Part shown: positions 8,635-22,329 of the stretch, piece by piece
Numbering within the stretch: position 1 is the stretch's first letter
Layout of the letters: the number at the start of each line of letters is the position of its first letter
Source: Citreicoccus inhibens
Lineage (GTDB): Bacteria > Myxococcota > Myxococcia > Myxococcales > Myxococcaceae
Length of the DNA: 64,000 nucleotides
NCBI RefSeq assembly: GCF_019039035.1
Contig: NZ_JAHNZT010000001.1
Location: 584,049 to 648,048, forward strand
Direction of reading: 5' to 3'
Notes under the pieces: model-generated
The model's input: the letters and a program-made list of their open reading frames with translations, nothing else
What the model was told of the DNA's origin: nothing
Databases searched by the model: none
Made by a program: the position numbers and the translations under genes

Positions 8635-9642
<1,008 letters not shown>

Positions 9643-12075: not shown

Positions 12076-14268
12076 ATGCATACGACCCTCGCCTCTCTCT
12101 TGAAGGCACGACCGCACCGCGTCTGGTGGGCGGGCGCCTCCGTGATGGCCCTGCTCCACAGCGCCACCGCGCTGGCCCAGACGTGCCCCACCCCCACGGT
12201 GGCCCTCTGCCAGCAGATGGACTTCCTGCAGAGCACCTGCGGACAGCAAAGCCAGACGAAGTGCGGCGACATCCTCTCCGCGGAATGGAAGAAGAAGCTC
12301 TCGACCTTCCCCAAGCGCTCGTCCCAGCTCCCGGCGTCCATGGGCGGCCAGGTCGTGACCACCAGCTACCTGGCGCGCGATCCATCCAAGGATCAGCTCT
12401 CCGGCCTGGAGGACACCTTCGCGGGCACCGTCCTCAAGAACCAGCAGCTCTATCGCAAGCAGTTCAAGAACCTCAACGAGGGAGACAAGCTCCAGCAGGA
12501 GCTGCTCACCAAGTGGGCTGGGAATGGCGAGGCCGTCGCCTCGTGCCAGGAATACGTCGACGAGAAATACAACGACTACAGCCGCTTCGAAGCGCGCGTG
12601 GGCCAGTTCGGTACGGACTACCTCGCCGTGTTCAACGCGGCCAATGCCGCGGAAGGCGGCATCTCGGACCGCAAGCTGTATGACCGCTCGGGCAACACGC
12701 TCGCGCCCATCTGGACGACGCAGCGGCTGGAGAAGAACGCGTACTACCTGTTCGCCCCCGGGCCCTACCCCGACGGGACCACGGCGTATGTCTTCAGCGA
12801 CAGCCTCGTGAAGCAGGTCAGCCCGAAGGGCCGCACGTGGTTCGTCGCCACGGACAAGTGGCACCAGACCCTGGCCACCGCGCTCGCCAACTATCACGTG
12901 GACGAGCTGAACGGACTCCAGGCGCAGCAGGAGGACTTCTCCGCGCTGCTCGATCGCCGGGCCCAGGCGTGGAGCTTCTACCAGGCCGAGCTGGCGCGCA
13001 TGAAGGCCGCGGACCAGGACCCCAAGGAGCTCAACCAGCTCACCGCCAAGAGCCTGTATGAGATGGACGCCGCCATCGAGCGCGGCCTCGAGGACGGCGC
13101 CAAGCAGGGCTGCCTCAACCTCGCCGCCAACACGAAGTGCGACTGGTCTCCGCGCCGCTACAAGAAGATGCTCGACGCGGCGATGTTCCCGCGCCGGCAG
13201 GCGGACTATCAGCGCTGCCTGACGCTCACCGCCAATGACTTCGGGCCGGACAGCTTCGTTCGCAACTCGGACAAGCTGGGCATCGATGGACTGAAGGGTG
13301 ACCGCACCCTCAACGTGGCCCTGCTGGATGACTACCTCACGCGCTATGCCGCCCAGCTCGTGGGCATGCTCACGCCGGTCGATCCCTCCACCGGCCTGCG
13401 CCGCGCTGGCGCCGAGCGCAGCGGCAACAGCCTCCTGGGCAACGACACCTTCGGGCTCGCGTATGACTATGCCGGAGGCTGGGGGCTGGACTTCGGCGCC
13501 GCGCCCCTGGGCATCAACTCAGCCGGTCCGCGGATGTGTGACGCGAACCTGCGCCTGTATGGACGCTTCACCGCGAACGCCGTCGTCTTCGGCGGCCGTG
13601 CCGAGGTCATCAACGCGAGCGCCCTGGGGGAGACCGAGACCGCCAGCGTGCACCTGCAGGCCAACCTGCGCGTGCTGGGCATGGACATCGCGCCCTTCCC
13701 GTACGATCAGCACTTCCCCGCGCGCTTCAACGTCTCGGCGAGCCCGTCCCGCGCTGGCACCATCTTCTCGGCCAGCGGCACCTACGTCGTCGTCTTCATC
13801 CCGGTCACGGTGACCGCGGGCCTGAACGGCGCCGTGGGCCTGCAGCTCGGCCTCAACGGTGGCGTGGCGCGCGACTGCGTCAATGACACCGTGGGCGTGG
13901 ACCTCAATGGAAACGTCACGCCGTTCGCGCGACTGGATGCGCTCGCCTCCGTGACCGTGGGGCTGCCGGGGATCGCCGCCGCGGGCATCATGGGCACCCT
14001 GAACCTGGTGCGCGCGGACATCCCGCTCACGGGCCAGTTGGGCCTGTACGTCACCTCGCCGTCGCACCCCACGTTCCCGTCCATGCTCGTGCTGCACACG
14101 GGCACGTCCATGGGGCTGAACCTGGAGGCGCTGTCGGGCCGGGTCGTCGTCTTCGCCACGCTCGGCCCCTACTACGGTGAGCTCGAGCTGGCCTCGTGGG
14201 CGGGCCTCGCCTACCACACGACGCTGTTCAACGACTCGTTCGAGACGCCGCTGGCCTCGCTCCGCTAG
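12076..14268 (+). CDS. Large exported protein of unknown function
   Basis: 730 aa with an N-terminal signal peptide (cleavage near residue 35, ALAQT). The N-terminal half is helical and charged, with several cysteine pairs (CPTPTVALC, CGQQSQTKC, CLNLAANTKC). From about residue 470 the protein is beta-rich and glycine-rich, with long alternating strands (VHLQANLRVLGMDIAPF, YVVVFIPVTVTAGLNGAV). No named family is recognised. It is the first gene of a plus-strand block with the next three (gaps 88, 37 and 21 bp), so it probably works with the HEAT-repeat and HAF-repeat proteins in the cell envelope. Confidence 0.8.
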   Translation: MHTTLASLLKARPHRVWWAGASVMALLHSATALAQTCPTPTVALCQQMDFLQSTCGQQSQTKCGDILSAEWKKKLSTFPKRSSQLPASMGGQVVTTSYLARDPSKDQLSGLEDTFAGTVLKNQQLYRKQFKNLNEGDKLQQELLTKWAGNGEAVASCQEYVDEKYNDYSRFEARVGQFGTDYLAVFNAANAAEGGISDRKLYDRSGNTLAPIWTTQRLEKNAYYLFAPGPYPDGTTAYVFSDSLVKQVSPKGRTWFVATDKWHQTLATALANYHVDELNGLQAQQEDFSALLDRRAQAWSFYQAELARMKAADQDPKELNQLTAKSLYEMDAAIERGLEDGAKQGCLNLAANTKCDWSPRRYKKMLDAAMFPRRQADYQRCLTLTANDFGPDSFVRNSDKLGIDGLKGDRTLNVALLDDYLTRYAAQLVGMLTPVDPSTGLRRAGAERSGNSLLGNDTFGLAYDYAGGWGLDFGAAPLGINSAGPRMCDANLRLYGRFTANAVVFGGRAEVINASALGETETASVHLQANLRVLGMDIAPFPYDQHFPARFNVSASPSRAGTIFSASGTYVVVFIPVTVTAGLNGAVGLQLGLNGGVARDCVNDTVGVDLNGNVTPFARLDALASVTVGLPGIAAAGIMGTLNLVRADIPLTGQLGLYVTSPSHPTFPSMLVLHTGTSMGLNLEALSGRVVVFATLGPYYGELELASWAGLAYHTTLFNDSFETPLASLR

Positions 14269-14356
14269 CGGCTGCTCCGCAGTCGCAGTCCCTGGCCCCG
14301 GAGCGCTCCCTCGCGCTCCGGGGCCCCTGCCCCACCGCATCGCCCGAGGACCTCCC

Positions 14357-16264
14357 ATGCTCCGCAATTCCTCTCTTGTCGCCCTCGTGGCGGCCACCGT
14401 GCTGTTCGCCCTGGGGATTGTCTTCTTCCCCCGCCTGGGCCTGGACTCCGCTCGCGCGCCGACAGGCTTCGCGGTGAAACCAGACTGGGTGCCCGGCACG
14501 CGCTATGCCTATGCGCTGCATTGGCAGAGCCTCCAGCGCGTCCCCAGCCTGCTGCCTCAGGGCCAAGGGAATCCCTCGCTGATGGAGGCCCAGCTGCGGC
14601 TCTCCGGCACGCTCGTGCTGAGCGCCCTCGAGCGCAATGACGACGGCTTCGTCCTCGGTGCCTCGCTCGAGGACCTGACGGAGCACGCGCTGGAGTTCCA
14701 GGGCCAGGAGGTCTTGCCGGACGATGCCTCCGTCGCCGCGGCCTTCCACGGGCACGAGGCGTGGGTGGAGCTGAGCCCGCAGGGCACGCTCCGCGCCATT
14801 CGCTTCGCCCCGGACGCACCGGAGCTCTTCAAGCAATCACTCCAATGGCTCATCACCGAGACGTTTCCCTCGCTCCCCACCACCCCGGAGCAAGCGCGCG
14901 CCGGAGCATGGGACTCGGCCGAGGCCACGGCCCTGGGCCATGTGTCCGCGCATTACGCGGTGGCTCCTGATGCGTCGCTGACGCTGCGCCGCACGCGAGG
15001 CCTCTACACCCAGTTCCACAGCGCGCCCGCCGGAGTACCGCCGCACGCGGTGACCTCCGAGGCCCGCTTCACCTTCGCGCCCGAAGGGCACCTGACCGAC
15101 GTCATCCATCACGAGGCGGTGCGCGCCGAGGAGGAAGACGGCCTGGATACGCGCGAGGTCTTCCAGCTCCACCTGCGCGCGGTGACGCGCTTCGAGCCCA
15201 CGGGCAAGTTGGACCTCGCGTCGCGCTCCGAGGTGCGCCAACCCGGCGCGCTGTACACGTCCGCGGACGCCGAGCAGAAGCTGCTGACCCAGCGCGCGGA
15301 CGGGTTGACCTTCGACACGCTGCTCAACGACCTGTTCACCCACGGCAACGCGGGAGAGATGCCCGAGAATGGCCGCTGGCTGTGGCGCGCCACGGGCTTG
15401 CTGATGCTCCATCCCGAGCGATGCAAGGAATTGGCGGTCTACTTCCAGGACCCGGGGACCGAGCCCTCGGGACAAGCGCTGGTGCTCGACCTGCTCGTGG
15501 GCGCGGGCCACGCCGAGGCCCAGGCCGAGCTGCGCCGCCTCGTGGATGACCCCGCCGCGCGCCGCACGCCCGAGGCCCATGGGCTGCTCTTCCAGCGCCT
15601 GGGGCTCGTTGCGCACCCGACTCCCGAGACCGCGGACTTCATCGCCCACCACCTCGCCGCGGCCATCGCGCAGAGCGACACGGGCCTGCGCGACGCCAGC
15701 GCTCATTCGCTCGGCGCGGTGGTGGGGCATCTGAGCGTGGACGCGGATCCAACCGTGGTGGCGCGCTACAACCAGGTGCTGACGGAGGGGCTCGCCAGCG
15801 CGGCGACGCCCGACGCGCAGCGCACGTATCTGCGAGCCCTGGGCAACGCGGGCCTCGCCGAGAACATCGCGCGCGTGCTCCCCTTCGCCGACGCGGCCGA
15901 CCCGGGCGTGCGCGAGTCCACCGCCGCGGCCCTGCGCAAGACGCCCAGCCCCGACGCCACCGCCACGCTCCTGCAACTGGCGCGCGCGCCCGAGCAGCGC
16001 GTGCAGGCCGCGGCGCTCGACTCGCTGCGGGAGCATCCGCTCGATGCGACCTCGCTCACGATGCTGCGCGACGTCGTGGTGGGCGGCGCGCTGCGCCCCG
16101 GCTCCGAGTCGCTCGTGGCGACGCTGCTGGAGCGCCGGCTCGACGGCGGCCCCGTCGTCGTCCAGGCCCTCCAGGCCCTGTCCCTGCGCGCGCGCCAGGA
16201 CCCCGTCCTGCGCGCCCGCGTGCTCCAGCTCCTCGCGCGGGCGGCCCTGGTGGCCTCGCGCTGA
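14357..16264 (+). CDS. Exported HEAT-repeat protein resembling the lipovitellin N-terminal module
   Basis: 635 aa from the ATG at 14357; the frame is open further upstream but that would overlap the previous gene. A signal anchor (VALVAATVLFALGIVFF) is followed by a beta-rich region of about 300 aa (PGTRYAYALHW, LRLSGTLVLSALE, LYTQFHSAP). A helical HEAT-like region from about 370 to the end follows, with repeats such as GLRDASAHSLGAVV and PGVRESTAAALRKTP. The order beta-barrel then alpha-solenoid recalls the vitellogenin/MTP lipid-transfer N-terminal module. That resemblance is by pattern only and needs a profile search. If correct, it suggests lipid handling in the envelope. Confidence 0.75.
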   Translation: MLRNSSLVALVAATVLFALGIVFFPRLGLDSARAPTGFAVKPDWVPGTRYAYALHWQSLQRVPSLLPQGQGNPSLMEAQLRLSGTLVLSALERNDDGFVLGASLEDLTEHALEFQGQEVLPDDASVAAAFHGHEAWVELSPQGTLRAIRFAPDAPELFKQSLQWLITETFPSLPTTPEQARAGAWDSAEATALGHVSAHYAVAPDASLTLRRTRGLYTQFHSAPAGVPPHAVTSEARFTFAPEGHLTDVIHHEAVRAEEEDGLDTREVFQLHLRAVTRFEPTGKLDLASRSEVRQPGALYTSADAEQKLLTQRADGLTFDTLLNDLFTHGNAGEMPENGRWLWRATGLLMLHPERCKELAVYFQDPGTEPSGQALVLDLLVGAGHAEAQAELRRLVDDPAARRTPEAHGLLFQRLGLVAHPTPETADFIAHHLAAAIAQSDTGLRDASAHSLGAVVGHLSVDADPTVVARYNQVLTEGLASAATPDAQRTYLRALGNAGLAENIARVLPFADAADPGVRESTAAALRKTPSPDATATLLQLARAPEQRVQAAALDSLREHPLDATSLTMLRDVVVGGALRPGSESLVATLLERRLDGGPVVVQALQALSLRARQDPVLRARVLQLLARAALVASR

Positions 16265-16301
16265 GTCCGCAGTCCCACTCCCGCCTCATGACGGACCTCG
16301 C

Positions 16302-18077
16302 ATGAAACCTAGACCTCTCTCGCTCCTCCCTGGCCTGTTGCTCTCGGCGCTGGTGCTCTCCAGCACCTCGCGCGCGAGCCCAGCCGATGACCTCATCCGT
16401 GGCGCCGGCCTGCGCGTCAATCACGCCACGGTGACCTTTGACAACCACGCGTACAGCGCGACGGACTATGTGATTGCCAAGCCGGCCGGCACGCTGAACT
16501 TGGTCCTGAAGGCACAGGACTTCGGCTTCGCGTCCGACCTCGTGGTTCACATGACGGGCGCGCGCTCCGGCGACACCGTGACGTGGGACTTCGACGACTG
16601 GCTGCCCACGCCCTATGACCTGGGCGGCTTCTACTCCTTGAAGCGTGTCTACGGGCACCTCGTGGCGAACGTGGAGCTGGTGCACGGCACCGACGCGCCC
16701 TCCTGCGGCACCGCGCTGTGCCCCTACAACGTGCGGCTGCGGCTCGGCGGGGGGACGTGGCTGCGCGTGGCGGGGAGCGGGCCGTTCTGGCACCCCAGCT
16801 TCGACGAGGCCGTCTCCGTCTCCACCTTCACCGCGTTCGGAGGGCTGCCGCGCCCTCGCCTGTCCGGACTCACCCTGCTGCGCCCCACGCGCTATTGCCT
16901 GGGCAGCGCGCCCACGTACTTCTCCGGCGAGGTGACGCTCAGCACTCCGGCGCCCACGGGCGGAGCCTGGGTGGACTTCACCAGCAGCTATGGCGCGGGG
17001 GTCTCCGTGGCGGGCCTGTACCTGGCCCAGGGGCTGACGCGTGGCCGCTTCGACGTGCGCGTGGCACCGGGCTTCGAGGGGAGCGCGCGACTGACCGCCT
17101 CGTCCGGCGGCGCGATGGCCTCCGAACTGGTGGAGATGAAGCAGAGCCCCCTCTGCTTCAAGTCCCCCGACTGGCTGAACATCAAGGCGGTGCTGTGCGA
17201 GAAGTGTCTGCTCGTGCGCGGTGTCAACGCGCGCGGCGACGTGCTGGGCCAGCAGGCCGGCTCGGACGTCGTGGTGACCGCGCAGGGGACGACCCTCAGC
17301 CTCGCCAAGCTCATGGGCGCGGAGCGCGTGGATGGCTCGCGGCTCAATGCCTGGGGTCAGGTGACGGGCACTGCCCTCATCAACGGCACGGCACAGTCGT
17401 TCCTCCTCGACACCTCGAACCTCAAGACGAAGCCCACCGTGTTGAAGCCGGGCACGGCGCTCGGGCTCAACGACGTGGGCACCGTGGTGGGTTCGCTGAC
17501 GGAGGGCAAGACGACGCGAGCCTTCCTCTTCGATGGGCAAGAGGTGCGGTCGCTGCCGCTCCAGGCCGAGTGGAGCACCGCGGTCGCGGTGAACAACCGC
17601 GGCGTCGTGGCGGGCAGCTATGACAACGGCAAGGGGCACCGCGCGTTCCGCGCGTACCTCGACACCGCCGAGGACCTGGGCGACCTGGGCGGCGGAGAGA
17701 GCGAGGCGCGCGCCCTCAATGAGCAGGGTGTGGTGGTGGGCACCGCGAAGACCGAGAAGGGAACGTGGACCGCCTTCCTGTCGCGGCCCAAGGAGGGCCT
17801 CAAGGACCTGGGCTCGCTGTCGAAGCTTCCGTTCAGCGTGGCGACCGCCATCAACTCGGCGGGCTGGGTGGTGGGCACCTCGCACGACGGCAAGCCCGAC
17901 GGCACGCGCCGCGCGTTCCTCTACACCCCCGCCGAGGGCCTCATCGACCTCACCTCGCGCGTCTGGCCCGACGCGAAGCTGACCGTGCTGGAGGCGCTCG
18001 ACCTCGATGACGCCGGACAAGTGCTCGTCCGTGCCCAGCGCGATGGCCAAGTCGGCTTCTACCTGCTCGCTCCCTGA
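16302..18077 (+). CDS. Exported HAF-repeat protein
   Basis: 591 aa from the ATG at 16302. A signal peptide (LLPGLLLSALVLSSTSRA) is followed by about 270 aa of beta-rich sequence without a recognised family. From about residue 300 there are about six repeats of the HAF type (GVNARGDVLGQ, ALGLNDVGTVVGS, AVNNRGVVAGSY, ALNEQGVVVGTA, AINSAGWVVGTS, ALDLDDAGQVLV). These repeats form a beta-propeller or related fold and are found in extracellular proteins. The gene follows the HEAT-repeat gene by 37 bp. Confidence 0.82.
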   Translation: MKPRPLSLLPGLLLSALVLSSTSRASPADDLIRGAGLRVNHATVTFDNHAYSATDYVIAKPAGTLNLVLKAQDFGFASDLVVHMTGARSGDTVTWDFDDWLPTPYDLGGFYSLKRVYGHLVANVELVHGTDAPSCGTALCPYNVRLRLGGGTWLRVAGSGPFWHPSFDEAVSVSTFTAFGGLPRPRLSGLTLLRPTRYCLGSAPTYFSGEVTLSTPAPTGGAWVDFTSSYGAGVSVAGLYLAQGLTRGRFDVRVAPGFEGSARLTASSGGAMASELVEMKQSPLCFKSPDWLNIKAVLCEKCLLVRGVNARGDVLGQQAGSDVVVTAQGTTLSLAKLMGAERVDGSRLNAWGQVTGTALINGTAQSFLLDTSNLKTKPTVLKPGTALGLNDVGTVVGSLTEGKTTRAFLFDGQEVRSLPLQAEWSTAVAVNNRGVVAGSYDNGKGHRAFRAYLDTAEDLGDLGGGESEARALNEQGVVVGTAKTEKGTWTAFLSRPKEGLKDLGSLSKLPFSVATAINSAGWVVGTSHDGKPDGTRRAFLYTPAEGLIDLTSRVWPDAKLTVLEALDLDDAGQVLVRAQRDGQVGFYLLAP

Positions 18078-18098
18078 CACCTTCCCGGTACTCCTTCC

Positions 18099-18800
18099 AT
18101 GAAGAACTCTCTTCTGAACTGCATTCTCTTGGTGGCGGCCAGCGCGGTGATTGCATCGGGCTGCAACGGCTGCGGTGGCGGCTCCACCTGTGACAACTCC
18201 CGCATCGCGCAGCAGGGTGGATGCTGCCGCACCGACAGCGCCACGCCCTGCGATGGCTCGCTCACCTGCAACAATGGCGCGTGCACGCCCTGCGGCGCCG
18301 CGGGGCAGCAGTGCTGCAACACCGGCGTGACGGAGACGTGCGCGGCGGGCCTGAGCTGTGAACTCCAGTCGAGCGGCCTGCACACCTGCAACGACTGCGG
18401 CGGACTCAACGAGCGCTGCTGCCAGGGCAACCGCTGCGAGAACACCTTCACGTGCAACACGGACACGAATCGCTGCATCAGCGCGGCCTCGGTCCACTGC
18501 ACCGGTGGTGCCAACCACTACGTGATTGGCGTGAGGGACAGTCAGCTCTGCGGCCAGAGCACCCTGGACATCAACGCCGATACGCCCGAGCAGGCGTTGG
18601 AGTGCGCGCGCACCATGCCCCTGCCACCGGGCGGCACGCTCATCCCCGCCCCGGCCGTGCTCCAGACGTTCTCGATGTGCTTGTCCACCACGACCATGGG
18701 AGTGCAGCGGCGCAACATCCGCGCGTTCAGTGACTACGACGCGCGCCAGTGCGCCTTGAACACCTGCGAGAACTGCACCGACGCCCGCTTCGACTGCTGA
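18099..18800 (+). CDS. Cysteine-rich lipoprotein
   Basis: 233 aa. The lipobox region is IASGC (cysteine about residue 22). Residues 22-130 contain more than twenty cysteines in short spacings (GGCCRTDS, QQCCNTG, ERCCQGN), as in small disulfide-knotted extracellular modules. The C-terminal 100 aa contain a globular part with several more cysteines. No enzyme motif. It is the last gene of the four-gene envelope block, and a hairpin follows. Confidence 0.78.
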   Translation: MKNSLLNCILLVAASAVIASGCNGCGGGSTCDNSRIAQQGGCCRTDSATPCDGSLTCNNGACTPCGAAGQQCCNTGVTETCAAGLSCELQSSGLHTCNDCGGLNERCCQGNRCENTFTCNTDTNRCISAASVHCTGGANHYVIGVRDSQLCGQSTLDINADTPEQALECARTMPLPPGGTLIPAPAVLQTFSMCLSTTTMGVQRRNIRAFSDYDARQCALNTCENCTDARFDC

Positions 18801-18832
18801 AGCGCCCTTCCCGCCCACGTCCCGACGGAATG

Positions 18833-18921: not shown

Positions 18922-20106
18922 ATGGTGAAGCGGAACTCCGGAGTGATGGGCCCCCGCGCGCTCAATCGCGCGCTGCTCGCTCGGCAGTTGCTGTTGCGGC
19001 GTGCGCGGCGCTCCGCGCTGGAGACCATCGAGCACCTCGTGGGCATGCAGGCCCAGGTACCCAATCCTCCCTACGTGGGGCTGTGGACACGGCTGGAGCG
19101 CTTCACGCAGGACGAGCTGTCACAGCTCGTCCTCGCGCGGCAGGTGGTGCGCATCGTGATGATGCGCAGCACCATCCACCTGGTCTCCTCGCGGGACTGC
19201 CTGGCGCTGCGCCCCGTGCTCCAGGGCTTCCTGGAGCGGGCCATGCTTGGGAGCCGCCACGGCAAGGGCATCGCGGGCATCGACGCCGCCGAGCTCATGG
19301 CGGCCGGACGCGCGCTCATCGAGGAGCGCCCGCTCACCCTCGCCGAGCAGGGCGCGAAGCTGGCGGAGCGCTGGCCGAACGCGGAGCCCACGGCGCTCGC
19401 CCAGGCCATCCGCACCTGGGTCCCCTCCGTGCAGGTGCCCCCCCGAGGACTCTGGGGCGGCAGCGGACAGGCCCAGGTCACGTCCGTCGAGGCGTGGCTC
19501 GGACAGCCCCTGGGCACGGACACCGCGCCGGACGCCCTGGTGCTGCGCTATCTGGCCGCCTTCGGGCCCGCGACCGTCAAGGACGTCCAGCTCTGGTCCG
19601 GGTTGACGCGACTGCGCGAGGTCACCGAGCGGCTCAAACCCCAGCTCCGTGTCTTTCACGACGAGCACGGCGACGAGCTGCTCGACCTCCCCGATGCGCC
19701 CCGCCCCGATGAGGACACCCCTGCTCCGGTGCGATTCATCGCCGAGTTCGACAACCTGACGCTCTCGCACGAGGACCGCTCGCGGGTCATCTCCGCGGAG
19801 GACCGCTCGCGCATCGCGACCCTCAACGGCATCGTGCCCGGACTCATCCTGGTGGACGGCTTCGTCGAGGGGACCTGGAAGCTGGAGCGCCAACGCACCG
19901 CCGCCACGCTGCACATCCTGCCGTTCCGTCCCTTGACGGCTTCGGACCGAACGGCCCTCGCGGACGAGGGCGCGAAGCTGCTCGCGTTCCTCGCCGGGGA
20001 CGCTCCGGCTCAGGACGTGCGGTTCGGCGCGGAGAAGCGCTCCGCGCCGCCCCAGCCTAAAGCGTCTGCAAGTACTCCACGAGGTCGTCCAGCTCGGCGG
20101 AGTTGA
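18922..20106 (+). CDS. AlkZ-like winged-helix DNA glycosylase (HTH_42 family)
   Basis: 394 aa. The N-terminus has the family pattern of LARQLLLRRA followed by VGMQAQVPNPPYVGLW. The Gln-Ala-Gln at 43-45 matches the QxQ catalytic motif of AlkZ-type glycosylases, which remove bulky alkylated bases or unhook interstrand crosslinks. IRIVMMRSTIHLVS-type and LPFRPL-type segments also match the family. The last 50 bp overlap the end of the convergent cytochrome lipoprotein gene. Family members with QxQ often sit in antibiotic clusters as self-resistance genes; no such cluster is visible here. The family is confident, the substrate is inferred. Confidence 0.85.
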   Translation: MVKRNSGVMGPRALNRALLARQLLLRRARRSALETIEHLVGMQAQVPNPPYVGLWTRLERFTQDELSQLVLARQVVRIVMMRSTIHLVSSRDCLALRPVLQGFLERAMLGSRHGKGIAGIDAAELMAAGRALIEERPLTLAEQGAKLAERWPNAEPTALAQAIRTWVPSVQVPPRGLWGGSGQAQVTSVEAWLGQPLGTDTAPDALVLRYLAAFGPATVKDVQLWSGLTRLREVTERLKPQLRVFHDEHGDELLDLPDAPRPDEDTPAPVRFIAEFDNLTLSHEDRSRVISAEDRSRIATLNGIVPGLILVDGFVEGTWKLERQRTAATLHILPFRPLTASDRTALADEGAKLLAFLAGDAPAQDVRFGAEKRSAPPQPKASASTPRGRPARRS

Positions 20107-22081
20107 GGTCCGCCGTCTGTCCGTGCGCGTTGGTCGTGCGGCCCTGCTCCAGACGCTCGCGGAGCGTCGCCGCGCTGCCGTCGTGCAGGTACGGCGCCGT
20201 GCGTGCCAGGCCCAACAGCGAGGGCGTGTTGAGTCCGGCGCTGATGACCTTCGCGTCGTCACGGACGAGCCCCACCGTCACGAACGTGCCCACGTTGGCG
20301 TTCTTGTTGTTGGTCAACGCGGCGCCCTCGTGGCACGTGCCGCAGCCCGCCTTGAGGAACACTTGGGCCCCTCGCGCCTGCGCCGCGCTGGGCGCCGCGT
20401 GCTTGTAGGGGTTGTCCGCCGCGGGAATCGTGTCGATGAATCCACCGAGCTGCGCCACCAGCGTGGCGTCCAGCGAGCTGCCGCCCATGCGCTGGCGCAC
20501 GGTGGCGTTCATGAACTCGCGCAGCGTGGGGAACTCGCCGCTCCAGTGGAACGGGCTGGTGGACGTGGTCATGCGGCCCGCGAGGCTGGGCGTCTGCCGC
20601 GGCCCATCCGGGAAGCCCCACACGTGGCCGTCCTCGCGCCCCTCCAGGTGACACGAGCCGCACGACACGCTCACCGTGGGGCTGGTCATCCGCGAGTCCA
20701 GCGCGGAGAAGAACAGGCGACGACCCGCGACCACCTCCGGCGCCAGCAGCTCGCCCGCGAGCGCCAGCCGAGGCCCCTCCTCGCGCACGTTGGCGTCGCT
20801 CTCCGTGCCGCCGCTCACCAGCGTGCTGAGCGTGTGGTCAAACGCGTTGTAGACGTAGGCCCGCTTGCCGTCCCGGGTGATGGCGATGCCCGTGGGCCCC
20901 GAGCCTACCGGGAGCAGCTGCCGCACCGAGCTGTTCGAGTTCGTCGACAGGTCGTCGCCCGTCCGCCGGTTCGTGGGGAGGATGGCGACGTTGTCCGTCT
21001 CGCGGTTCACCAGGAACAGCCACGAGCCCGAGGGGTCCACCACCGCGGCCGCCGGGCCCTGGATGGGATTGCCGAACTGCGGGGAGGTCACCATCGTCGG
21101 CGGGAAGTCCGGGGTCTCGCCCGGCGGCGGGCCGCAGTGGTTCAGCTCATCCACCACCGGCCGCGCGTCATCCGACTCGAAGGTGATGAGGCCCGGGGTG
21201 ACGACGCCGCCGCCCGTGGCATTGCACGGAGTGCCGCCGCCATACAGCGAGCCACCGCCCTGATTGGGCGTGGGCGTGGCCGACACCAGGGGGTCCGCGC
21301 GCGCCCACATCATCGGAGCAAAGAGGCGCCGCCCGTCCGGCGTGGAGACCACGTCCGCCATGCCACGCGCGCGGAAGGAGTGCGGCACGGAGCCCACCCC
21401 TCCCGGCATGGTCGTGTCCGAGCCCGGGTCAGAGGCGTTCGCGCGAACCCGATTGGCGCGCGCCAGCAGGTCCGTCCCCTCGCGCGTCAGGCGGGGGCGC
21501 TCCGCGTCCGACAGGTCCACGGACACCACGTCGCCCTGGCGGAACAGCGAGAGGACCGCGCGCCGGCCCTCGTCCAGGAGCGCGATGCCCCGCGGCTCCT
21601 CACCCACGGGAAGCTCCCAGCGCGTCGCCAGCGAGCGCGTGTCGATGGCGGTGAGCGTGCCGTGCGCGGTGGAGTCCAGCGCGGTGCTGTTCACCACGTA
21701 GAGCGTGTCGCCGTCGGGAGACACCGAGAGGCCCGTGGGCTCCACGGACACCGGGATGCGCGCGGCCTCCGTCCACTCGCCTCGGCGGACGACGGAGACG
21801 CTGCGCTCGGCGCGGTTGGAGACGTAGACCGTGTCATCCGGCCCCACCACCACGCGCTCGGGGCGAAGGCCGACCTTCACCTCGCCCACCTTCTCGCGGC
21901 GCGCGGCGTCCACCACGGCGAGGATGCCGTTGTCCGCGTCCACCACGTAGACGAGCGAGTCATCCCGGCTGAGCGCCACGGAGCCAGAGGCATTGCTCCA
22001 CGTGGCCTCCACCCGCCGCTCTCCACATCCCGCCAGGCCCAGCACCGCCACCATCGCCGCGGTCCGCAGGTGACGCTTCAT
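20057..22081 (-). CDS. Lipoprotein with beta-propeller and di-heme cytochrome c peroxidase-like domain
   Basis: 674 aa from the ATG at 22081 (MKRHLRTAAM); an open frame upstream was not used. The lipobox is GLAGC. Residues about 30-430 contain YVTN/NHL-like propeller blades (VYVVDADNGILAVVD, DTVYVSNRAERSVSVV, DTLYVVNSTALD, AYVYNAFDHTLSTL). The C-terminal part has two heme c motifs, CGSCH near residue 477 and CGTCH near residue 580, plus the TPSLLGLARTAPYLHDG segment typical of MauG and bacterial cytochrome c peroxidases. It probably acts in the periplasm or on the cell surface in peroxide reduction or protein oxidation. It is convergent with, and overlaps by 50 bp, the AlkZ-like gene. Confidence 0.88.
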   Translation of the reverse strand: MKRHLRTAAMVAVLGLAGCGERRVEATWSNASGSVALSRDDSLVYVVDADNGILAVVDAARREKVGEVKVGLRPERVVVGPDDTVYVSNRAERSVSVVRRGEWTEAARIPVSVEPTGLSVSPDGDTLYVVNSTALDSTAHGTLTAIDTRSLATRWELPVGEEPRGIALLDEGRRAVLSLFRQGDVVSVDLSDAERPRLTREGTDLLARANRVRANASDPGSDTTMPGGVGSVPHSFRARGMADVVSTPDGRRLFAPMMWARADPLVSATPTPNQGGGSLYGGGTPCNATGGGVVTPGLITFESDDARPVVDELNHCGPPPGETPDFPPTMVTSPQFGNPIQGPAAAVVDPSGSWLFLVNRETDNVAILPTNRRTGDDLSTNSNSSVRQLLPVGSGPTGIAITRDGKRAYVYNAFDHTLSTLVSGGTESDANVREEGPRLALAGELLAPEVVAGRRLFFSALDSRMTSPTVSVSCGSCHLEGREDGHVWGFPDGPRQTPSLAGRMTTSTSPFHWSGEFPTLREFMNATVRQRMGGSSLDATLVAQLGGFIDTIPAADNPYKHAAPSAAQARGAQVFLKAGCGTCHEGAALTNNKNANVGTFVTVGLVRDDAKVISAGLNTPSLLGLARTAPYLHDGSAATLRERLEQGRTTNAHGQTADLNSAELDDLVEYLQTL

Positions 22082-22329
22082 GTGACGCTCCTTCGCGGCC
22101 TCGCGCGGCGCGGGGGGTGCCTCCCTGCCCGACGCATGGCTGCTGTCCTGCCGAGGAGAGGCGGCCGGCCCTGATCGCTCACCCTCCCGAGGCCCCCCAT
22201 GCTCGCTCATCCCGGCTCCGAAAGTCGATTTCTTCCACACCGAGCGTCCGGGTGGCGGACAGTGCCACGCGTCCGCTGGGTGAAACGTCGCGAGCATGGG
22301 ACGGCCGGGCCGTGTAAAGGAGGGGAGTC

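Follow-up and report, generated by a model that had tools for sequence, protein, structure and literature searches.

The window analysed here, a 64,000-nucleotide stretch of the Citreicoccus inhibens genome (contig NZ_JAHNZT010000001.1, positions 584,049 to 648,048; the genome comprises 9.05 Mb in 123 contigs), encodes a 635-residue protein, here designated V, whose predicted fold is that of a lipovitellin-like module. The gene immediately upstream encodes a 730-residue protein that ends in an all-beta domain, designated B. The fold class of V and the frequent pairing of V and B genes are both established by computation. On this basis we propose, with a probability of about 0.5, that the products of the two genes together form a relative or analogue of the large lipid transfer proteins (LLTPs) of animals, one that consists of two chains and is located in the envelope.

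The genes for the B protein (gene 1) and V (gene 2) are followed by those for a HAF-repeat protein (gene 3) and a Cys-rich protein (gene 4). As the initial annotation described, the four open reading frames (ORFs) lie head to tail on one strand, with gaps of 88, 37 and 21 bp (Table 1). Its descriptions of the products also stood. The start of the gene 1 product (MHTT...ALAQ) resembles a signal peptide by eye; the gene 3 product matches TIGR02913 in a domain search (E 1.2e-19); and the gene 4 product is Cys-rich with a lipobox-like IASGC motif, recognised by eye, and is a putative lipoprotein. The identical four-gene order recurs in a genome of the same genus (L034), in Myxococcus and in one further genus (L050), and the four ORFs are thus conserved coding sequences. 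The V and B proteins of the same-genus relative are 93% and 95% identical to those of the window, while those of the Myxococcus relatives share 36–39% and 39–41% identity with them.

Table 1 Positions of the features discussed (window coordinates unless a locus is named).
Feature	Position	Strand	Basis
NAD-glycerol-3-phosphate dehydrogenase	8635–9642	-	neighbour
Gene 1, partner protein, 730 aa, signal-peptide-like start, C-terminal all-beta domain B	12076..14268	+	ORF; homologue adjoins V at most loci
B domain, gene 1 residues 444–730, about 14 antiparallel strands, several very long	13405..14265	+	model of middling confidence
Gene 2, V, 635-aa lipovitellin-like protein	14357..16264	+	ORF counted from ATG; fold model
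V N-terminal hydrophobic helix (signal or anchor), residues 5–22	14369..14422	+	model
V barrel region (N-sheet-like), residues 49–279, 11 strands, helix at 156–169	14501..15193	+	model, Foldseek, VIA-align 2
V HEAT-type helical domain, residues 303–634	15263..16258	+	Pfam, model, VIA-align 2
V L495-G496-N497, aligned to MTP L477/N479	15839..15847	+	single-sequence alignment
Gene 3, HAF-repeat protein, 591 aa, signal-peptide-like start, lineage-limited accessory	16302..18077	+	ORF
Gene 4, Cys-rich putative lipoprotein, 233 aa, lineage-limited accessory	18099..18800	+	ORF
AlkZ-like DNA glycosylase	18922–20106	+	neighbour
Protein with beta-propeller and cytochrome c type matches	20057–22297	-	neighbour
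B-less V next to dnaA	L049:10715–12685	+	Pfam
B-less V next to dnaA	L098:8096–10114	-	Pfam
Large B protein	L153:1086–10475		
Large B protein	L114:1–4350		
Large B protein	L106:473–4777		
Large B protein	L109:9987–14594		

Predicted structure of V

V was modelled with AlphaFold2 on a 35-row alignment designated A1. The 66 unique V proteins were thinned at 75% identity and 550 aa to 35, from which L008 was omitted; the window sequence replaced its own copy (L003), and a distant row (L080) was added. The mean predicted local distance difference test (pLDDT) score of the model is 89.9. The model places an 11-stranded barrel before a helical domain composed of 19 helices of at least 9 residues and one of 4 residues, and Pfam locates ordinary HEAT_2 repeats at residues 473–558 (E 4.4e-9). 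The order of a beta region and then a HEAT solenoid suggested in the initial annotation is thus borne out by domain search and model. Lipovitellin has 13 strands, 11 of them in the barrel, and 17 helices (PMC5538283). Of 82 unique V proteins, 67 have a hydrophobic 18-mer ahead of the V domain.

A Foldseek search of the V model against 350,542 PDB chains returned only MTP, apoB-100, lipovitellin and honey-bee vitellogenin at ranks 1–11 (E 1.2e-14 to 9.9e-9). Ten of these alignments span both the barrel and the solenoid (613–740 columns), and the remaining one, to the apoB barrel chain, covers 396 columns. Rank 12 was an engineered protein with an E-value of 9.5e-5. VIA-align 2 gave a similar picture: among the 50 rows listed, six start before residue 300 and all six belong to the LLTP superfamily. 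Lipovitellin (1lsh) aligned over 532 residues with a Z-score of 18.6 (V 43–618), and 9bd8 over 307 residues with a Z-score of 19.5 (V 40–391). The likeness to the N-terminal module of vitellogenin and MTP claimed in the initial annotation is therefore upheld at the level of the fold by the top 11 Foldseek matches, together with the lipovitellin and Vitellogenin_N profile matches described below.

The model ends with the last helix at residue 634, where the animal proteins continue into the sheets of the lipid pocket, and it contains neither lipid-binding sheets nor a lipid cavity. The structure prediction does not refute the initial proposal: the resemblance to Vitellogenin_N holds, although V itself lacks the cavity. 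The first sheet of lipovitellin contacts no lipid and its helical domain contacts little (PMC1940002), so V alone need not bind lipid, a point that counts against the two-chain LLTP reading. Because V as modelled has no pocket sheets and its barrel no disulphide, and because the equivalent parts of lipovitellin touch so little lipid, V by itself is not a lipid carrier of known design and is not classed here as an LLTP.

Sequence relationship of V to the large lipid transfer proteins

When the A1 profile was searched against PDB chains, lamprey lipovitellin (1lsh) was matched in one stretch (profile positions 114–498 to residues 92–507) with an E-value of 1.2e-14, and MTP with 1.5e-8. The Pfam family Vitellogenin_N matches the window V at residues 373–542. 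At E ≤ 0.01 it was found in 30 of the 35 V family members, with a best value of 1.8e-18; a scan of 14 control genomes gave no match to it. The match ranges listed fall wholly or for the most part within the helical half; 2 of the 35 barrel sequences match weakly (best 0.0019).

A single-sequence alignment of the window V with MTP is weak (E 0.2) and places L495 and N497 on MTP L477 and N479. PMC7444587 assigns a role to each of these MTP residues: L477 packs helix 10, and a bond made by N479 joins the helical domain to the C-sheet, the sheet forming the lipid site. Among V alignments of more than 450 residues (124 rows, 83 unique), position 497 is Asn in 77 and position 495 is Leu in 72 of the 83 unique proteins. 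As the ALG-x motif is common in HEAT repeats, this conservation supports the docking parallel without deciding it. A search of a plasmid collection with one V protein gave no match.

The partner domain B

The N-terminal region of the gene 1 product has no known domains, and B occupies its C-terminal part. In the model, the strands of B reach 26 residues. The three leading Foldseek matches in the PDB are lipovitellin 1lsh and two MTP chains of 6i7s (E 2.9e-5, 5e-5 and 4.4e-4), followed by a porin at rank 4 (1.1e-2). The top VIA row is MTP 6i7s_H with a Z-score of 8.6 over 201 residues and a root-mean-square deviation (rmsd) of 10.9, aligning model residues 461–723 to MTP 632–880. This range falls in the lipid-binding C-terminal domain of MTP, at about residues 604–894. 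No clearly separated family emerged among the VIA rows listed for B.

The architecture of B proteins varies widely. One large group has B protein ORFs of only about 390–490 aa. In distant families, B forms the end of proteins of 1,434–3,129 aa that adjoin V (L106, L114, L153, L154 and L156), two of which (L114 and L153) carry Laminin_G_3 lectin-like domains. Two further proteins have an internal B core, at 525–681 of 1,535 aa (L109) and at 467–637 of 1,460 aa (L105). From the occurrence of B in such very large proteins, export of the B proteins is probable.

Pairing of V and B genes in Myxococcota

A total of 195 Myxococcota genomes were surveyed for V with A1 and for B with a 279-position profile (A6). 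A1 matched in 176 genomes, in many of them only with weak E-values that were taken for generic HEAT proteins, and the pairing count was therefore restricted to the V matches listed, the weakest of which has an E-value of about 2e-52. The second fragments of two V genes (G062 and G053) were left out. B was found within 3 kb of 115 of the 148 listed V places, and 115 of 134 B places have a listed V. Once the DNA was read, 12 of the 19 exceptional B places proved to have V alongside, which raises the latter count to 127 of 134; the other seven (G009:C608, G011, G025, G026, G074:C378, G080:C627 and G090) are counted as listed. By genome, 67 of 70 with a listed V also have B.

Relative to V, B is upstream 84 times, downstream 24 times and on the opposite strand 7 times, which shows that their link does not depend on one frozen gene order. 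The distances among V and among B proteins are correlated (Spearman 0.77 for 62 pairs, against a maximum of 0.19 in 200 permutations), which shows that they were inherited together but does not demonstrate contact. Reads of the pair cover ten Myxococcota families by label (f1, f2, f3, f4, f6, f13, f17, f24, f30 and f31), and the genome of the window holds two further pairs, on contigs C123 (L047) and C33 (L048, divergent). A second contig search with profile A4 yielded 11 loci, all in Myxococcus or Corallococcus, and a contig search with P0006 alone gave no match.

Several arrangements deviate from the simple pair. V and B stand head to head on opposite strands in certain paralogue groups, at L048, L102, L103, L104 and L105, and two B-domain ORFs in tandem precede a single V gene at L107:1–3855 (+). 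No fused V–B polypeptide was seen among the loci read. At L157:298–8745 (-) a B match of 39 positions shares the open frame of V, and the main B match lies in another frame, which may reflect a fusion, a frameshift or an assembly error.

Weighing of the two-chain LLTP reading

A number of observations tell against this reading. The template-modelling (TM) scores of the 11 leading Foldseek matches of V are only 0.28–0.46 by query length, with rmsd values of 8.6–21 Å; a different hinge between the two domains of V would produce such values, and the arrangement may also differ in detail. Lipovitellin was included in the AlphaFold2 training set. AlphaRep and other HEAT proteins reach similar VIA Z-scores on the helical half of V, and alphaRep designs outscore lipovitellin in the A1 profile search, through the repeats only. 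The window V scores 23.8 bits against Vitellogenin_N, where the cut-off is 24 (25.2 bits in the genome scan), and the cut-off is also passed by short ORFs, probably for plain HEAT proteins (G099, 352 aa; G103, 364 aa). Given these short ORFs and the spread of A1 matches over most genomes, the Pfam match alone was rejected as proof. The barrel-only profile A2 found no LLTP among PDB chains at E ≤ 10, and profile A5 (barrel and first helices, ending ahead of the conserved HEAT repeats) no longer finds lipovitellin and retains only MTP at 0.0012; the homology of the barrel thus rests on its predicted fold. The disulphide of the animal barrel is absent: in their aligned region, 74 of the 83 unique V proteins have at most one Cys.

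The evidence on B and on pairing includes further points of this kind. The B model is weak, with block means of 43–76 in the domain and a predicted TM-score of 0.47, and the VIA scores of outer-membrane proteins, at 8.1 and below, are within tie range of the 8.6 for MTP. The partner profiles A3 and A6 gave no LLTP match among PDB chains, and Pfam returned nothing useful for 42 partner members, with a single S1 domain match at 0.001. In addition, 33 of the 148 listed V lack B within 3 kb. About 23 of these appear by eye to be a dnaA-linked subfamily, for which dnaA was verified by Pfam at L049 and L098 only, and for one (G191) the next gene does carry B. No B was found at three dnaA-linked or similar loci (L097–L099), with at least 6.8 kb read on either side. 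V also lies near the start of contigs G069:C1, G072:C1 and G077:C1.

Under the proposed mechanism V, anchored or exported through its N-terminal hydrophobic helix, would supply the N-terminal barrel and a helical cradle, and B, at the end of the exported gene 1 product, would contribute a large amphipathic beta sheet. The sheet would dock on the cradle, in part through the conserved Leu and Asn of one HEAT helix, so as to close a hydrophobic pocket. Within this pocket, a lipid or some other apolar ligand could be carried across the envelope or out of it. The contact between V and B, the role of B as the lipid-binding half, the apolar cargo and the envelope location are inferred.

The strongest competing explanation keeps the contact of V and B and makes V a dedicated chaperone or docking factor for secreted B proteins, with lipid carriage the main job of neither. 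Its appeal lies in the predicted lack of lipid-binding sheets in V and in the position of B at the end of the very large proteins, including the two with Laminin_G_3, which resemble surface proteins with a dedicated partner; by analogy, the N-sheet and helical domain of MTP bind apoB (PMC5538283). We nevertheless regard it as unlikely, though deserving a sizeable minority of the weight, since the best PDB matches of the B model are lipid-binding proteins and the short B ORFs of the large group look more like a working subunit than a tag. It is improbable that B is instead an outer-membrane beta-barrel or surface sheet, unrelated to lipid transfer, with V as its periplasmic escort. EspP (8.1), Pla (7.8) and OpcA (7.7) do follow MTP closely in VIA, the fourth Foldseek match is a porin and some B proteins end in an aromatic residue, but such a residue terminates only 24 of 59 distinct B ends (a count that includes ORFs cut at locus or contig ends and proteins with internal B). 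The great length of the B strands and the internal B cores of L109 and L105 also speak against it. The least probable explanation is convergence, in which an unrelated beta domain has been fused to ordinary HEAT repeats. It would account for the good scores of generic HEAT proteins on the helical half and for the silence of the barrel in sequence searches, but not readily for 11 leading Foldseek matches from a single superfamily, ten of them across barrel and solenoid, or for a collinear lipovitellin match that begins at profile position 114.

Comparison with known proteins

The large subunit of MTP (6I7S and 8EOJ) is the best Foldseek match of V. It likewise has a barrel and then a helical domain in one chain, shares the conserved Leu and Asn on the helix that docks its lipid-binding sheet, and aligns with B over the range given above. 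MTP also pairs with a second subunit, PDI, whereas no PDI was seen for V and B. Its lipid-binding sheets are in the same chain, whereas those of the V–B pair would belong to a separate exported protein; moreover, V is bacterial and without the barrel disulphide. Lipovitellin and vitellogenin (1LSH, 9ENR and 9ENS) and apoB-100 (9BD1) show the same order of barrel and helical domain (Foldseek ranks 3–6 and 8–11), and 1LSH is also matched by the A1 profile. In contrast to these proteins, whose PDB chains comprise about 950–4,500 residues, V has no open sheet or VWD domain after its helical domain. Bacterial HEAT-repeat proteins and alphaRep designs share with V the ordinary HEAT_2 repeats but match the helical half only: none of the 44 other VIA rows listed aligns before V residue 301.

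The literature searched describes MTP, apoB and vitellogenin in animals only. No bacterial LLTP was mentioned in it, including PMC7444587, PMC8727950, PMC1783640, PMC5538283, PMC1940002 and PMC4048283; preprints and most subscription papers were outside its scope. What is new here is that V is half of a V–B gene pair, in which the partner may supply the missing lipid pocket.

Accessory genes and neighbours

Genes for the HAF-repeat and Cys-rich proteins follow V and B in the window, in L034, in L050 and in 14 Myxococcus reads (L035–L041 and L084–L090; 13 distinct loci, with L039 and L089, from contigs of equal length, counted once). In six Corallococcus reads (L042, L043 and L091–L094; five distinct, with L042 and L091 likewise counted once) and in the other paralogue groups read, the two genes are not found next to V and B. 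The four-gene operon was accordingly rejected as a conserved unit. The conserved unit is the pair of genes 1 and 2, and the HAF and Cys-rich proteins are lineage-limited accessories. The operon proposed in the initial annotation therefore survives in its first two genes, which stay together, and not as a block of four; its overall interpretation is partly supported.

A 920-codon frame at 16056–18818 (-), antisense to the HAF-repeat and Cys-rich genes, is most likely an artefact of high GC content. The three neighbouring genes of the window (Table 1) have no evident link to the V–B pair.

Implications

It is possible, though we hold it tentatively and at somewhat under an even chance, that Myxococcota own a split LLTP, with barrel and cradle in V and lipid-binding sheets in B, encoded by paired genes that occur as several paralogues in each genome. 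The yolk, MTP and apoB superfamily would then belong to a wider family that bacteria also share, by gene transfer in either direction, and would not be an animal invention. Lipoprotein assembly and yolk depend on MTP, apoB and vitellogenin. A bacterial protein with barrel and cradle, together with a separately encoded candidate lipid-binding half, would make the origin of the superfamily testable. The V–B pair would also give a small two-chain model of MTP. Myxococcota are predators. During development, Myxococcus xanthus forms triglyceride lipid bodies (PMC4048283). In the myxobacterial envelope, the pair would indicate a new carrier class, with lipids or other apolar ligands as its cargo.

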